From the IMG/VR virus record IMGVR_UViG_3300037264_000605, positions 1-30,725 of that record: 30,725 nucleotides of DNA; one strand, written 5' to 3'. A program made the position numbers and the translations under genes. Shown here one piece after another: positions 793 through 8,241 of the stretch (position 1 is its first letter; the number at the start of each line of letters is the position of its first letter). Below the pieces are notes generated by a model. It worked only from the letters and a program-made list of their open reading frames with translations. It was not told the origin of the DNA and did not search any database. Source of the DNA: a virus.

Positions 793-1036
793 CGAGCGGG
801 TTCTCTGGTGGCACGTCCTCGATCAAGCGTTCAACGACGCGCTAACGAGTACGTCATCGCAGCTCGCCGCGACTTCTCGAGCATGGTTCGCCGACGATTC
901 AACGTGCGTTGGGTCGCTCCGGTGGGTCATCTACGCCACTGGGCTCGACGTCAAAGTGGCGGACGTCAGACGGCGCCTGCTACAAGGCGAGAAGTGGAGC
1001 GGCATTAGGTATCAACGCTTCGTCGGGCGACGATAG
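770..1036 (+). CDS. Small phage protein, 3' part of a repeat-split gene
   Basis: This encodes 88 residues from ATG 770, which overlaps the upstream stop as ATGA and lies in the tandem repeat. The sequence has a helical region with an aromatic pair (RVLWWHVLDQAF), then AWF and a stretch SLRWVIYATGLDVKVADVRR. An AWF...F/L-x-W-V...LGLD...VR pattern is familiar in small uncharacterised phage proteins encoded near replication and packaging genes, where it is usually one continuous protein of about 100 residues. The residues supplied by the repeat (KHDEAR) also match what the upstream frame would supply. Function unknown. It may be expressed by reinitiation or may be a decaying remnant. Confidence 0.6.
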   Translation: MKHDEARCERVLWWHVLDQAFNDALTSTSSQLAATSRAWFADDSTCVGSLRWVIYATGLDVKVADVRRRLLQGEKWSGIRYQRFVGRR

Positions 1037-1750
1037 GTGCTTACCGCGGAATCTGAATCTGGTGAGCGCCTCGCCGCAACACCGAAAGCGTCGGGCCGCT
1101 GTCCGATGTGCCAATCGCCAATGACTCCAAAGTGCGGAGGGATCGTCATCTGGCATTGGTCGCACCGCGCCGATCACACTGAATGCGACGACTGGCACGC
1201 CGTCGAAACCGAGTGGCATCGGGAATGGAAATCGCTATTCCCGTTGGATAGCCAAGAGGTTGTCCTCGAGAAGCGCAGCAAGAAGCATCGCGCCGACGTG
1301 CTGTTGCATCGCGAACTGGTGATCGAATTCCAGCACTCTCCAATCACGATCGCGGACGTTAAGGCTCGCGAGTCGTTCTACGGCCGACGCATGGTGTGGG
1401 TGTTTAACTGTCGCGACGCATTCAAGGATGGACGGCTAACGTTGTCGGACCACGGTGAATACAAGACGTTCCGGTGGACGCATCCCAAGCGGACGCCGCA
1501 ACGATGCGAGCGACCGACATTCTTCGATCTTGGCGGCGCGGGCGTCCTCGATGTAAGGAAACTCCACGGCGACACACGGATAGGTGGATGGGGTTACCTG
1601 CGGACAAAGGCCGACTTCGTGAACGCGATGACCCTGGCGAATCCGAGAGGGTGGATGGAGATGTTGTACCGAGGACCAGAGGCCTTCATTGATCCTTTTG
1701 ATGCCGCCAAAGATCTCGATTCGCCGCAGTGGGCTCCGGGTTTACCGTGA
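1037..1750 (+). CDS. CoiA-like putative nuclease
   Basis: This encodes 237 residues starting at GTG 1037, directly after the TAG of the previous frame. The N-terminal part has a zinc-ribbon-like CPMC (Cys22, Cys25) and then WHWSH (His40, His43), as in CoiA-family proteins whose N-terminus reads CPxC...HFAH. This is followed by EVVLEKRSKKHRADVLL (Asp87) and VIEFQHSPI (Glu97, Gln99), which match the nuclease-like core of CoiA (D...ExQ). CoiA was named for a role in competence in Gram-positive bacteria; phage members are probably DNA-processing nucleases. The C-terminal 130 residues (WVFNCRDAF onward, Trp and Gly rich) were not recognised. An intergenic leader follows before the replication gene. 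Confidence 0.75.
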   Translation: MLTAESESGERLAATPKASGRCPMCQSPMTPKCGGIVIWHWSHRADHTECDDWHAVETEWHREWKSLFPLDSQEVVLEKRSKKHRADVLLHRELVIEFQHSPITIADVKARESFYGRRMVWVFNCRDAFKDGRLTLSDHGEYKTFRWTHPKRTPQRCERPTFFDLGGAGVLDVRKLHGDTRIGGWGYLRTKADFVNAMTLANPRGWMEMLYRGPEAFIDPFDAAKDLDSPQWAPGLP

Positions 1751-1845
1751 GACAATGGGGCCGCTCTTAGCGGAGCGATCCCGGTGAGGCTCGGGGGTGG
1801 CCTGGACAGCGCCCCCGAGCCGAACCACTGTCCAGGGGGTAGCGT
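1751..1845 (+). promoter_or_regulatory. Structured leader with potential pseudoknot at the ribosome binding site
   Basis: The 95-nt gap before the replication gene is dominated by self-complementarity. A 5-bp triloop hairpin lies at 1761-1765/1769-1773. A perfect 10-bp stem pairs GGCTCGGGGG (1788-1797) with CCCCCGAGCC (1812-1821). Its 14-nt loop contains CCTGGACAG (1801-1809), which is perfectly complementary to CTGTCCAGG (1828-1836). The two stems interlock in H-type pseudoknot order. The second 3' strand overlaps the Shine-Dalgarno AGGGGG (1834-1839), six bases before ATG 1846. No T-tract follows, so an intrinsic terminator is unlikely. It could act on RNA (translation control) or as a protein-binding DNA site. 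Confidence 0.65.
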
Positions 1846-2661
1846 ATGGCACGCGTCAATGTCGATCAGAAGGCTCTCACTGACCCAAGGTTCTACCGGT
1901 TAGGAATCGATCTTGGGGCCGAGCCCGAGGTCGCCCACGCGGTCGGGCTCTATACCATGATCCTGGTATGGTCTGAGTGTATCCAACGCGTCGTCTACGT
2001 TCTCGACGGCTGGGTACTCCAATCGATAACCAAGAAAACCAACGGGCACGAGATTCTGCTCTCCGCGGACCTCGTTGTAAAACTAGCGAACGACCGTTTT
2101 CGCGTGAGAGGCGCACGTGAACGATGCTTATATATGAAGGAAGCGCAGGAAAGAGCGCGAGTTAACGGCCAAAAAGGAGGTAGACCAAGAAAACCAACGT
2201 TGGTTTCTACAGAAACCAAAGTCGAAAGCTCTTCTCTTACTCTTACTCCTACTCTTAGTACTTCTGAGTCTGAGGTAGTTTCCAAGGCTTCTACTACCAC
2301 GCTAACAGTTGTCGATTCGCCAAAAAACGGCGAAGTCGACGGCGCGCTCGTCCGTATCCCCAAGAAGCCACCCGGAACCCGAGCCAAGAAAAGCCCACTC
2401 GTGAACGGGGCGCGCGTCGAGCGGATGCAGGAAGATTTCATGAAGCTTTACGAGTTCTATCCACGCCACGTAGGACGTGACGCAGCGTGGCGGGCTTTCG
2501 TGAAGCTCGACCCCGACCTCGAGACGCTACAGGCCATAGTCGCCGACGTCAAGAAACGCACGGACGCCGGGGACTGGATGCCCGACGACCCCGAGCGCGT
2601 CCAGTACATCCCCCACATGAGCACGTACCTGAACCAACGGAGGTGGACCGATGAGGCGTAG
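1846..2661 (+). CDS. Phage replication initiator / replisome organizer-like protein
   Basis: This encodes 271 residues from ATG 1846 with AGGGGG six bases upstream. The N-terminal 100 residues (KALTDPRFYRLG, then AVGLYTMILVW) resemble the winged-helix N-terminal domain of phage replisome organizers. A basic NGQKGGRPRKP motif at about 107-117 is common in these proteins. Residues about 118-165 are a Ser/Thr-rich linker. The C-terminal region (FMKLYEFYPRHVGRDAAWRAF, then IPHMSTYLNQRRW) matches the YPR...A...F...yIP...TyLN..RW pattern at the C-terminus of many phage replication proteins. It probably binds the phage origin and recruits helicase-loading factors. The linker DNA has lower GC than its surroundings and carries origin-like repeats (separate entry). 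The next gene overlaps its 3' end by 11 bases. Confidence 0.75.
   Translation: MARVNVDQKALTDPRFYRLGIDLGAEPEVAHAVGLYTMILVWSECIQRVVYVLDGWVLQSITKKTNGHEILLSADLVVKLANDRFRVRGARERCLYMKEAQERARVNGQKGGRPRKPTLVSTETKVESSSLTLTPTLSTSESEVVSKASTTTLTVVDSPKNGEVDGALVRIPKKPPGTRAKKSPLVNGARVERMQEDFMKLYEFYPRHVGRDAAWRAFVKLDPDLETLQAIVADVKKRTDAGDWMPDDPERVQYIPHMSTYLNQRRWTDEA
2029..2300 (+). other. Candidate replication origin inside the replication gene
   Basis: ACCAAGAAAACCAACG occurs exactly at 2029-2044 and 2184-2199 but in different reading frames (TKKTN versus PRKPT), so the identity is not explained by protein conservation. The second copy runs into a 16-bp perfect palindrome, AAACCAACGTTGGTTT (2191-2206). TTGGTTTCT (2200-2208) is repeated inverted as AGAAACCAA (2211-2219). 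A partial match, AACCAACGG, is at 2632-2640. The next 80 bases are pyrimidine-rich with CTTACT repeats. G+C counted by hand over 2181-2300 is 50 of 120 bases, well below the surroundings. Lambda-type origins lie inside the initiator gene with iterons followed by an AT-rich unwinding region, and this layout is similar. Confidence 0.5.
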
Positions 2662-2944
2662 CCTGGTTGTCCTCAGCGACCTATCGCGCGTATCGGCAGA
2701 CGACCTACTGCGCCGGCTGATGGAAGCTCGAGCCGGAAACCTCGCACGACCCGACTACGAGGAACCCACGTTCAAGTGCCCCGCATGCTGCGACACCGGG
2801 TTCCTAACCAGTAGGCACCAGAACGGACTGGTGTACGGATCAAAGTGCTCGTGCCTCTTGGCCGAAATAGCCAAGAAACCAAAGAGGCAACTCAAACTAC
2901 GTGGCCGCCAGAATGTCGATGACGACGGGATGCCGGTCTTTTGA
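2651..2944 (+). CDS. Zinc-ribbon hypothetical protein next to the replication gene
   Basis: This encodes 97 residues from ATG 2651, with GGAGG at 2639-2643. It overlaps the replication gene by 11 bases, so the two are probably co-translated. The central part has KCPACCDTGF (Cys pair) and later SKCSCLL (Cys-x-Cys), a CxxC...CxC arrangement typical of a small zinc ribbon. A similar Cys pattern (CPxCxGxG...CxC) occurs at the N-terminus of DnaC-like helicase loaders and in DnaJ-type zinc domains, but no ATPase domain follows here. The C-terminus is Lys/Arg-rich. A replication accessory role is plausible from context only. The next gene starts at TTG 2941, overlapping this stop. Confidence 0.7.
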   Translation: MRRSLVVLSDLSRVSADDLLRRLMEARAGNLARPDYEEPTFKCPACCDTGFLTSRHQNGLVYGSKCSCLLAEIAKKPKRQLKLRGRQNVDDDGMPVF

Positions 2945-3216
2945 CCCAACCCACCCCCATCGAACCACCCATATCCACCCGCGAGTTGGCCCAGCACCTG
3001 CGGCGGATGATGGAACTCGCTGGCGAGACCCCGCATGGCCTCGCTGCGCGCCTGGGCGTCTCTGTGGCGACGATCGACGCCTGGCTCTACGGACGGCACC
3101 TGGAAAAGGTCGCGACGATCCTGGGGGCGTTTGAGGCCCTTGGGTGCGTGGTGAAGATTCTGCCCATGACAAAACGTCCGGACACCCCTTGCGTTCTGAG
3201 GAAAACGCATATGTAA
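2941..3216 (+). CDS. Small helix-turn-helix DNA-binding protein
   Basis: This encodes 91 residues if started at TTG 2941, which overlaps the previous stop; an ATG pair at 3007/3010 would give about 70 residues, and the start is uncertain. The segment ETPHGLAARLGVSVATIDAWLYG reads as an XRE/Cro-type helix-turn-helix: a helix with Leu-Ala-x-x-Leu-Gly-Val-Ser, a turn, then a recognition helix with TIDAWLYG. The following helix (ATILGAFEALGCVVKIL) has the shape of a short XRE-family C-terminal part. It may regulate early or late transcription. A terminator-like hairpin follows its stop, so it could be the last gene of the early operon. Targets cannot be inferred. Confidence 0.7.
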   Translation: MTQPTPIEPPISTRELAQHLRRMMELAGETPHGLAARLGVSVATIDAWLYGRHLEKVATILGAFEALGCVVKILPMTKRPDTPCVLRKTHM

Positions 3217-3224
3217 TACGCCCG

Positions 3225-3248
3225 AGCGCACCAACGCGCTTTTGATTT
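3225..3248 (+). terminator. Weak intrinsic terminator candidate
   Basis: AGCGC (3225-3229) and GCGCT (3236-3240) form a 5-bp stem with a six-base loop, followed by TTTGATTTTAT. Stem and T-rich tail have the order of a Rho-independent terminator, although the stem is short and the tail is interrupted. It lies between the HTH gene and the methyltransferase gene, in the only sizeable gap in this part. A second short stem, GCGTT/AACGC at 3191-3195/3204-3208, lies just inside the HTH gene. Confidence 0.4.
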
Positions 3249-3263
3249 TATCGCGGGGTGGCG

Positions 3264-4562
3264 ATGGACGTCGTGGAAGTCAGCGTCTCCGACCTCGCCA
3301 CAATGGGCGCGCCGTACAACCCCCGACGCATCGACGATCACGACATGGACGCCCTACGGCGATCCCTGCGGTACTTCGGCACCGTGGAGCCGATTGTCGT
3401 CAATCGCCGTTCTGGGCGCATCGTCGGCGGCCACCAACGGGTCAAGGCGGCTCAGGCCGAGTCGATGGCGTCCCTACCGGTGGTCTACGTCGACCTCGAT
3501 GACCCATCCGAGAAGCAGCTCAACATCGCGCTGAACCGCATCCACGGCGAATGGGAGCCGGAGCTACTCTCGAGCCTACTGCGCGAGCTCGAGGCGGAAG
3601 GCGCAGACCTGGCGCTCACGGGGTTCGCGGATTTGGAGTTGACGAGACTGTTAGCCTTGGCGAATGAGGGGATGACTGATCCCGACGAAGTGCCACCTCT
3701 CGATGTTGTGACACACGCGCGGACGGGTGACGTTATTCTGATGGGTGGTCACCGACTTGTTTGTGGCGATTCGACTGACACTGCGGTTATAGAATCGGCG
3801 TGCTGCGATCGACGTGCGATGTTAGTGGTGACGTCTCCGCCCTACAACTGCGGCATCGACTACGACGTCCACGACGACTCGATGAGTCCCGACAAATACC
3901 TCGAGCTCATCCGTAGAGTCGCCGCAGCGGTTGTCGATCACTGCCTCGATGATGGCGGCGTGTGCGCCTGGAACGTAGGCGTCACCCCGAAGACAATGCA
4001 CACAAGGCACGCCGCGATTCTCGAGGGCGTCGGGCTCAAATATCTGCGCCAGATCGTGTGGCGTAAGTCCGGCGTCGCATATCCGATCTGGCAGTTCACG
4101 ACGGCTGAATGCAAGGCGCGACGATACACGCCGAACTATCAGCATGAAATCGTTTTCCTGTTCTCGAAGGGTGACGTATCTGAGGGTCAGCCTGGATCAT
4201 CGCAGCCAGACGACGATCTGTACTGCGACGTATGGGACATCGTACAAAGTCAGGCGACGGTGGGCCTCAAGATTGCTGTTAGGAAAGGCTCGAATTCCAT
4301 GACTCACGGATCGCACAATATTGCGAGCCATCCGGCGGCGTTCCCAGTGCAGGTGCCGTCGGGAGTGATACGTCACATGGCGGCAAAGGGTGATCTGGTT
4401 TTCGATCCATTCGCCGGATCTGGTTCATCGTTGATTGCCTGCGAGATTCTGGGCCGCACGTTCGCAGGTGTTGAGATGTCGCCCGCTTACTGCGACGTGA
4501 TCGTCAAACGCTGGCAGGACTTCACAGGCAAGAAGGCCGAAGGGTGGCGAGGCAATGCCTAG
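3264..4562 (+). CDS. ParB-like domain fused to N4/N6 DNA methyltransferase
   Basis: This encodes 432 residues. ATG 3264 is chosen because GGGG (3254-3257) is well spaced; GTG 3258 in the same frame has no ribosome binding site. Residues 1-110 are a ParB/sulfiredoxin-like domain (NPRR near 19, then IVGGHQR with GGHQR at 55-59). A linker leads to a beta-class DNA methyltransferase: TSPPYN (190-195) is the catalytic motif IV and DPFAGSG (381-387) is the AdoMet-binding motif I, in the permuted order typical of the beta class. SPPY is common in N4-cytosine enzymes but also occurs in N6-adenine ones. This fusion is widespread in phages and usually lacks a partner restriction enzyme; it probably protects phage DNA. 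It sits just upstream of the packaging genes and overlaps the next gene by 8 bases. Confidence 0.9.
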   Translation: MDVVEVSVSDLATMGAPYNPRRIDDHDMDALRRSLRYFGTVEPIVVNRRSGRIVGGHQRVKAAQAESMASLPVVYVDLDDPSEKQLNIALNRIHGEWEPELLSSLLRELEAEGADLALTGFADLELTRLLALANEGMTDPDEVPPLDVVTHARTGDVILMGGHRLVCGDSTDTAVIESACCDRRAMLVVTSPPYNCGIDYDVHDDSMSPDKYLELIRRVAAAVVDHCLDDGGVCAWNVGVTPKTMHTRHAAILEGVGLKYLRQIVWRKSGVAYPIWQFTTAECKARRYTPNYQHEIVFLFSKGDVSEGQPGSSQPDDDLYCDVWDIVQSQATVGLKIAVRKGSNSMTHGSHNIASHPAAFPVQVPSGVIRHMAAKGDLVFDPFAGSGSSLIACEILGRTFAGVEMSPAYCDVIVKRWQDFTGKKAEGWRGNA

Positions 4563-6136: not shown

Positions 6137-8241
6137 TGGGCCGCTTCGGGAACGCGGTCAAGGCCCTCTTCGGGGTGCAGTTCTCCGTCCCAGGCCCGGC
6201 ATCATGGGGGTCAACGCAGGACTGGCTTCGCGGCCTCGATATTCCAGGCCAAACCGGCCTGTCTGCTCCCTACGCGCAGCATCCTACGATCGCCCTTTGC
6301 CTTGACCTCGTCTCCCGCGATGGGGCCTCGGTGGAATGGGAAGTCTTCCCGCGCGGGGTCGATGATCCAGACGCAAGGATCGACGATCACCCCATCCTTC
6401 GCGCCTTCGCTTCGCCGGGGCCGGGGCTGACCGGGCGCGATCTCTGGACCTTGACCTACCTCCAACGGATGCTCTTCGGCGAGGCGTTCTGGTACTACCC
6501 AGACCTCATTCTCGGTTCCACGGGCCGCACGCTCAAGGTCAACGGGAGCGGCGGTATCGCCATCCTGGACCCGCGAGCCGTTCGGTCGAGGCGCAACGCC
6601 GACGGCACGCTCGCGTGGACCTACGAACCGAGCGGCCAAAAGATCGTCCTCGACGCGGATCGTCTCACCCAGTTCAAGCGGATCAATCCCTACGATGGGG
6701 TGCGAGGACAGTCTCAAGTTGAGCCTATCCTCGGCGAAGCCTGCGCCGATTGGGCGGCGGCCGAATGGAATCGCCGATTCTTCTCCGAGAACAACGGTAT
6801 CCCAACCCTCGTCCTGATCCCCGGCGATACCGGGGCCGCGCTCATGATGACTTCCACGCAGCGCGAGGAGTTCCTTCAGCGCTGGAAGACGCAGCACGCG
6901 AATAAGCGCAACGTCGGGGCGATCCCTGCCGGGTGGGACATCAAAGACTTCTCCATCTCGCAAAAGGACATGGACTTCCGCTCGCTGCGTGAGTACTCGC
7001 GCGAGCTGATCATGGCCCAGATGGGCGTGCCGCCCTTTATCGCGGGGGTGCTCGACAAGGCGAACTACGCGAACGCGCGCGCGCAGTCGGAGGTGTATTG
7101 GAAGGGCACCATCTCGCGGATGTTGATCGAGGTCCAGGCGACACTGAATGCTGATTTCCTTCCGAAGGTCGGGGCCGCCGACATCGATCTCTTCCCGTGC
7201 TGGGAGCAGGTCAAGGCGCTCACGGAGGACCTCGCGGCGAAGACCGCGATGGCCGATACTTGGATGAAGATCGGCATCCCGAAGCGCGAGATCAACGAGC
7301 GTCTCGAAATGGGATGGGACATCGACGAGATCGAGGACGCCGACCAGGGCTACGTTGCCACGAGCCTACAGACCATCGAGAACGCGAGCGCTCCACCGCC
7401 AGCGCCGATGGCACTGCCAGGCCCCGGCGGTGCCGCCAATCTCACCGACCCGGCAGTGCCTCCTCCTCGGGCGCTGACGCTCGTCACAGGCGAGAAGAGT
7501 GCGGCCTCAACGCGGCTCACCTGGCGATCCCATAACGCGGCTCGGATTCGGACGGAATCGCGGTTTGAGAAGCTCGTCCGATCGCATTTCAACGCCCTCG
7601 AACGGGAGACCCTTGACAATCTCTACGGCATGAAGGGTTACACGGCCAAACAGATTGAGGATCCGGAGCGGGTCATCTTCGACCTCGCGACCGCGCAAGC
7701 GGAGATCGCGCGCAGGTCGCAGCCGGCTTACGAGGCGGCCATGGTCTCCGGGAACAATTCCTTGGAGTTGGACATCGCGTCCGTGGAAGCGGTCAATTTC
7801 CTTTCGCCGCGAGTCATTGCGCGCGTCACTCAATTGACGAACCGCATCAAAGACATCGACGTCACCGTTCAGCAGCTTCTTCGTGAAGAGTTGTCTGCGG
7901 GGATCAGCGCGGGCGAGAGCATCGATGAGATCGCGAAGCGCGTTCAGTCCGTCTTCGACGTCTCACGCGCGCGCGCTCGCGCGATCGCGCGGACCGAGAA
8001 CGGCGTCGCCTTCAATACCTCCCGCAACGAAGGCATGAAAGAAAACGGCATCAACCAGCATCGCTGGATCACTCAACTCGATGACGTGACCCGCGAGGAT
8101 CATCGGAAAGAGAATGGGAATGTCGTCGCCATCGGCGAGCACTTCCCCGAGACCGGACTTTATTACCCCAACGACCCGGCTGGACCGGCCGCGCAAGTCA
8201 TCAATTGTCGATGCCTTGCCGTCCCGGTGACGTGGAGGTAA
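6136..8241 (+). CDS. Portal protein fused to Mu F-type head morphogenesis domain
   Basis: This encodes 701 residues from ATG 6136, which overlaps the large terminase stop; GTG 6127 in frame is less likely. Residues about 1-430 have HK97-type portal features: a DLVSRDGASVEWEV segment, LTYLQRMLFGEAFWYY, RINPYDGVRGQS, and the MAQMGVPPFIAGVLD and NYANARAQSEVYW region typical of portals. A Pro/Ala-rich linker (about 415-460) leads to helices and then a Mu gpF/SPP1 gp7-type domain (about 590-700) with ARTENGVAFNTSRNEG and INCRCLAVPV. The portal forms the DNA entry ring at one head vertex, and the F-like protein is a minor head protein. They are usually separate adjacent genes; here no stop or restart separates them. 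Confidence 0.93.
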   Translation: MGRFGNAVKALFGVQFSVPGPASWGSTQDWLRGLDIPGQTGLSAPYAQHPTIALCLDLVSRDGASVEWEVFPRGVDDPDARIDDHPILRAFASPGPGLTGRDLWTLTYLQRMLFGEAFWYYPDLILGSTGRTLKVNGSGGIAILDPRAVRSRRNADGTLAWTYEPSGQKIVLDADRLTQFKRINPYDGVRGQSQVEPILGEACADWAAAEWNRRFFSENNGIPTLVLIPGDTGAALMMTSTQREEFLQRWKTQHANKRNVGAIPAGWDIKDFSISQKDMDFRSLREYSRELIMAQMGVPPFIAGVLDKANYANARAQSEVYWKGTISRMLIEVQATLNADFLPKVGAADIDLFPCWEQVKALTEDLAAKTAMADTWMKIGIPKREINERLEMGWDIDEIEDADQGYVATSLQTIENASAPPPAPMALPGPGGAANLTDPAVPPPRALTLVTGEKSAASTRLTWRSHNAARIRTESRFEKLVRSHFNALERETLDNLYGMKGYTAKQIEDPERVIFDLATAQAEIARRSQPAYEAAMVSGNNSLELDIASVEAVNFLSPRVIARVTQLTNRIKDIDVTVQQLLREELSAGISAGESIDEIAKRVQSVFDVSRARARAIARTENGVAFNTSRNEGMKENGINQHRWITQLDDVTREDHRKENGNVVAIGEHFPETGLYYPNDPAGPAAQVINCRCLAVPVTWR

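Follow-up and report, generated by a model that had tools for sequence, protein, structure and literature searches.

The stretch of DNA analysed here (the window) is a single virus record of 30,725 bases, whose terminase, portal and capsid genes mark it as a tailed phage. A CoiA-like open reading frame (ORF) at 1037-1750 is followed by an intergenic leader of 95 nt (1751-1845, + strand), which runs up to the ATG at 1846 of a λO-like replication initiator ORF encoding 271 amino acids (1846-2661, + strand). This ATG is the sole candidate start, because an in-frame TAG (1840-1842) precedes it. The C-terminal half of the initiator matches phage replication initiation families (phrog_270, 2e-13; phrog_9474, 2.9e-13; phrog_9327, 2.8e-11), in agreement with the original prediction of a replication gene at this place, and no Pfam family matched the ORF. 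A scan of 1000-4000 for promoter-like sites, using the sigma-70 consensus only, found none on the + strand and one on the − strand (2081-2053), against 1.0 expected. Inside the initiator gene, 2029-2299 is a candidate lambda-O-like origin, in which an exact 16-nt repeat, ACCAAGAAAACCAACG, occurs at 2029 and 2184 (a spacing of 155, which is not a multiple of 3), together with additional copies of AAACCAA(C/A)G and one inverted copy (2198-2206); it adjoins a stretch with 41% G+C, compared with 62% overall.

The leader contains two perfect stems that interlock, as established from the sequence and by script. Stem 1 pairs GGCUCGGGGG (1788-1797, + strand) with CCCCCGAGCC (1812-1821, + strand) over 10 bp, and stem 2 pairs CCUGGACAG (1801-1809, + strand), which lies inside the loop of stem 1, with CUGUCCAGG (1828-1836, + strand) over 9 bp, leaving loops of 3, 2 and 6 nt. 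Both stems and their H-type order had been predicted, and the positions proved exact to the base. The last three bases of the 3′ arm of stem 2 are the first three of the Shine-Dalgarno sequence, which had been given as AGGGGG and is refined here to AGGGGGU (1834-1840, + strand); it lies 5 nt upstream of the ATG and forms 7 bp with the anti-Shine-Dalgarno at the 16S 3′ end (−10.8 kcal/mol). Stem 2 thus covers the AGG, i.e., three of its seven bases, as predicted. A crossing order A-B-A′-B′ with short loops is what a pseudoknot requires, whereas the arms would be nested if they came from an inverted duplication, and the words of stem 1 and stem 2 are unrelated. With interlocking stems, the second of them on part of the Shine-Dalgarno, the leader would by its sequence belong to the class of H-type pseudoknots that overlap a ribosome-binding site (RBS).

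Upstream of stem 1, the leader holds an ordinary first hairpin (1757-1782, + strand; 10 bp with a 1x1 mismatch) and a possible upstream ORF of 10 codons (MGPLLAERSR, 1755-1787, + strand), picked out by eye on weak evidence. This small ORF starts 4 nt past the stop of the CoiA-like ORF, and its UGA (1785-1787) abuts stem 1; it may be a leader ORF or a coincidence.

Chance expectation for the interlock

None of 100 dinucleotide shuffles of the whole window reached stems of 8+8 or 10+9 bp under loop limits of 6/4/15, and 500 whole-window shuffles under looser limits of 8/6/20 gave six hits at 8+8 and one at 9+8. When 1751-1860 was shuffled 20,000 times with the limits of 8/6/20, 7+7 was found in 16 shuffles and 8+8 or 10+9 in none. 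A real background was also searched on both strands, comprising 2,356,694 bases from 168 of 240 phage loci, none of them chosen by motif (the 72 left out were the window's own record, 67 motif-chosen loci and 4 named-phage initiator loci). This background held two hits at 8+8 and none at 9+8 or 10+9, compared with means of 1.2 at 8+8 and 0 at 9+8 in six simulated sets. Chance is excluded in practice for the 10+9 interlock.

Seven real hits were found in the background at 8+7, of which four (L164, L170, L199 and L205) closely precede the C-terminal region matched in an initiator gene. By eye, the interlocks in at least three of these (L164, 1780-1840; L170, 1407-1448; L199, 2392-2433) are inverted copies of one word, resembling iterons, near the conserved C-terminal part. 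The stem words of the window are unrelated to each other, which sets it apart from this one-word pattern.

Shuffles of the leader also rarely match the stability of its nested fold (z −2.58, with 4 of 200 as good). The antisense strand folds similarly (z −2.91), so that the strand is not decided by energy alone; the wobble U1798-G1811 lengthens stem 1 on the sense strand only, which is a weak pointer.

Energy and geometry of the two states

Stem 1 is longer in the nested fold, where U1798-G1811 and G1799-C1810 bring it to 12 bp, and this fold also has an outer helix (1783-1785/1824-1826); for the pseudoknot to form, the outer helix as well as both inner pairs have to open in favour of the loops. 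Stacking sums were −26.8 kcal/mol for stem 1 with 10 bp (−23.5 with 9 bp) and −19.6 kcal/mol for stem 2. By a hand estimate, both stems stacked amount to −46.4 kcal/mol and the competing nested fold at this place to −30.7 + 4.3 − 5.5 = about −31.9 kcal/mol; the pseudoknot would therefore come out ahead as long as loop formation costs less than about 14.5 kcal/mol (11.2 when stem 1 has 9 bp). Loop costs near 10 are usual in pseudoknot models, which would place the two states close in energy with the pseudoknot somewhat ahead. By this estimate, the two states are near enough for switching.

The loop spans were derived from an ideal A-form helix using fibre parameters, which were checked against the minimum distance of 10 Å across the deep groove of such a helix. 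Loop 1 (3 nt) spans 16.3 Å. With all 10+9 pairs formed, loop 3 (6 nt) has to span 41.8 Å, or 7.0 Å per nt, which is at the limit and bears out the earlier remark that the loops are tight; opening one pair of stem 1 gives 7 nt over 39.6 Å, or 5.7 Å per nt. The full 10+9 form would therefore be strained and slight fraying is expected, the model predicting strain in loop 3 unless one or two pairs of stem 1 open.

In nested ensembles the G run of the Shine-Dalgarno is partly paired with other bases, in a manner that varies with the stretch folded, so it is doubtful how far the "open" state is open. In the pseudoknot the GGGU of the Shine-Dalgarno stays free, so repression may be partial.

Relatives and look-alikes

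Searches of phages, plasmids, IMG/VR and GTDB contigs turned up no initiator that shares the N-terminus of the window's protein. Searching with the initiator returned 49 GenBank phage records, none with 80% query coverage, and the 20 matches listed were all to its C-terminal part, as were those in four plasmid records; the N-terminal 105 amino acids alone gave no match to GenBank phages at E 10. One stretch in IMG/VR and nine in GTDB contigs fitted the pattern of the initiator protein, and none of these was a relative. A weak hit of the N-terminus to phrog_3926 (E 0.13) was followed into 20 records, and the family was found in 0 of 20. An alignment of six initiators yielded 80 IMG/VR loci, the best 80 of at least 460 confirmed, of which 79 had a script-assigned start (L154 being the one without); by eye, none of these begins like the window's protein, and crossing stems occur near the start in 6 of the 79, each of 5-6 bp.

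The rest of the genome was also used to look for relatives. An alignment of the terminase found 84 stretches but no relatives in GTDB contigs. Phages related by terminase, portal or methyltransferase carry other replication modules (L003 and L041), end early or lack an initiator match, except for a weak C-terminal one in L104. The nearest relatives by terminase are L002 and L003, with 81-82% identity. The DNA of L002 is 82% identical to the window over 2942-3226 and does not match before 2942, and at the equivalent position L003 and L041 encode, by eye from their ORF lists, another replication protein. The replication module seems, from these sequences, to have been exchanged, which would explain the absence of covariation data. 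The module boundary at 2942 is itself sharp. By eye, L002 (160-335) and L003 (4010-4195) carry repeated words (GCGCCA-like, and GGTGGCAC palindromes) just upstream of the HTH gene, which are perhaps origins or operators.

Motif scans recovered parts of the arrangement elsewhere. The word of stem 2 with a gap of 8-38 nt occurs in 32 stretches, six of which (L011, L012, L018, L021, L027 and L037) have a crossing first stem of merely 5-6 bp. The word of stem 1 occurs with 10 bp in four stretches and its 9-bp core, GCTCGGGGG...CCCCCGAGC, in 35 stretches in IMG/VR; a crossing stem of at least 7 bp accompanies this core only in L208, which is also among the four. There, an intergenic H-type pseudoknot of 11 + 9 bp lies at 6978-7055 of another phage contig. 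L208 was not counted as covariation: its genes are on the opposite strand, its two stems are similar to one another (GGCTGAGGT, GGCTCGGGGGT), and the chance of a crossing stem of at least 9 bp, simulated for four loci at 0.1-0.6% per locus, extrapolates to about 0.05-0.1 over 35 stretches.

A translational switch and its alternatives

The feature in this single genome is real, non-random and RNA-like and lies in a telling place, and the mechanism proposed for it is plausible. Judged from the sequence, the leader probably carries a cis-acting RNA pseudoknot that tunes initiator translation as a switch at the RBS, with translation lower when stem 2 forms. Stem 1 would fold immediately on transcription, and its loop would then pair with 1828-1836 to form stem 2, sequestering three bases of the Shine-Dalgarno; this stable helix, abutting the rest of the Shine-Dalgarno, would lower 30S loading. 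In the nested state with its 12-bp hairpin, the Shine-Dalgarno would be free of stem 2 and the initiator would be made. The balance could be shifted by the initiator, another protein, a small molecule or upstream ribosome traffic. We infer that stem 2 forms in vivo and has a repressing effect, and that this balance is shifted by some factor; the position of stem 2 on the Shine-Dalgarno favours repression. A frameshift or readthrough role is rejected, because 37 nt separate the end of the upstream ORF (1750) from stem 1, and a terminator role is unlikely, as the scan shows no terminator-like site at stem 1.

The pseudoknot is of a known kind, represented in this single genome by a variant that fits no named family. 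Rfam covariance models gave no match above the gathering threshold in the whole window (the best scores, ceN61 at E 2.4 and RsmW at E 4.7, were far below their thresholds), consistent with the original prediction, which had recognised no riboswitch. The ribosomal protein S15 gene rpsO has a pseudoknot at the ribosome site, where the target is a ribosomal protein and not a replication gene. The closest working model is, by analogy, the preQ1 riboswitch. In the T. tengcongensis riboswitch, the second helix of the pseudoknot shares two bases of the Shine-Dalgarno and lowers 30S binding, and nearby structure itself also hinders the 30S (PMC9410914). The leader is likewise H-type, its second helix sharing three Shine-Dalgarno bases where that of preQ1 shares two (PMC9410914). 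It differs from preQ1 in having no Rfam match and no known ligand and in preceding a phage initiator gene. The stems of preQ1 are also much shorter. The T4 gene 32 precedent named in the original prediction is a loose one. In T4/RB69 the pseudoknot occupies the 5′ end of the operator, at a distance from the ribosome site, which belongs to a less structured stretch of more than 40 nt that follows; there it nucleates cooperative binding at UUAAA repeats (PMC535899). The likeness is a leader pseudoknot on a phage replication gene (PMC535899); in the window stem 2 itself covers the Shine-Dalgarno, and 1837-1845 offer no stretch of this less structured kind with UUAAA-type repeats.

It is unlikely that the repeats are DNA sites and the interlock incidental; they would then belong to an origin or to an operator, bound by the HTH protein (2941-3216) or some other regulator. 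This reading would agree with the similar folding of both strands, with the resemblance to origin iterons seen where inverted repeats interlock in certain other initiator genes, and with the words repeated just upstream of the HTH gene in L002 and L003 (by eye). However, copies of the two words with at most one mismatch are near expectation in the window (8 vs 6.5 and 6 vs 6.25 expected), the two words differ from each other, and the initiator gene itself holds a stronger candidate for an origin, one that has both a repeated word of its own and an A+T-rich stretch.

By gene type, the closest analogues are the leaders of plasmid initiators, which suggest that the pseudoknot might instead activate translation, with 1755-1787 as the leader ORF. 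In ColIb-P9 repZ (IncI-alpha) and IncL/M repA, pairing between a loop and sequence upstream of the rep ribosome site activates, the leader ORF being translated first and an antisense RNA blocking the pairing (PMC8383071, PMC8125031). The leader of the window shares with them an initiator gene, a pseudoknot at the rep ribosome site and a possible small leader ORF, here with its stop abutting stem 1, and the loop-to-RBS pairing is of the same sort; unlike in these plasmids, stem 2 overlaps the Shine-Dalgarno instead of preceding it, and an antisense RNA is not evident (PMC8383071, PMC8125031). The one promoter-like site that 1000-4000 holds on the − strand (2081-2053) is no more than chance would give, and the small ORF lacks a clear Shine-Dalgarno, short ORFs being common. 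We regard activation as improbable.

It is also rather improbable that only the hairpin of stem 1 matters, for mRNA protection, as an RNase site or as a pause, with stem 2 accidental. The GC-rich hairpins with the same core in many phage contigs (the 35 stretches in IMG/VR) would accord with this, but, given stem 1, a crossing perfect 9-bp stem arises in only about 0.12% of shuffles, and this one lands on the Shine-Dalgarno. Pure chance, for which nothing speaks beyond the single-genome basis, is negligible in view of the shuffles of window and leader and of the 168-locus background.

Returning to the translational switch, initiator dose helps to set the timing and amount of phage DNA copying. 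Plasmids have pseudoknots in initiator-gene leaders, and a phage counterpart acting directly on the Shine-Dalgarno would link both worlds. Titles and abstract starts in the open-licence literature, with most subscription journals outside it, yielded no description of a lambda-O-type phage initiator with a pseudoknot in its leader. There is a slim prospect that the leader represents an undescribed class, a phage-borne, long-stemmed RBS pseudoknot switch setting the dose of a lambda-O-type initiator through the initiator, another phage protein, a small molecule or ribosome traffic on the small ORF, with the start of replication governed at translation. As the stems are strong and simple, paired mutations would be an easy test. 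Elsewhere in the window, a perfect tandem repeat of GCACGATGAA in 3.8 copies occupies 755-792.
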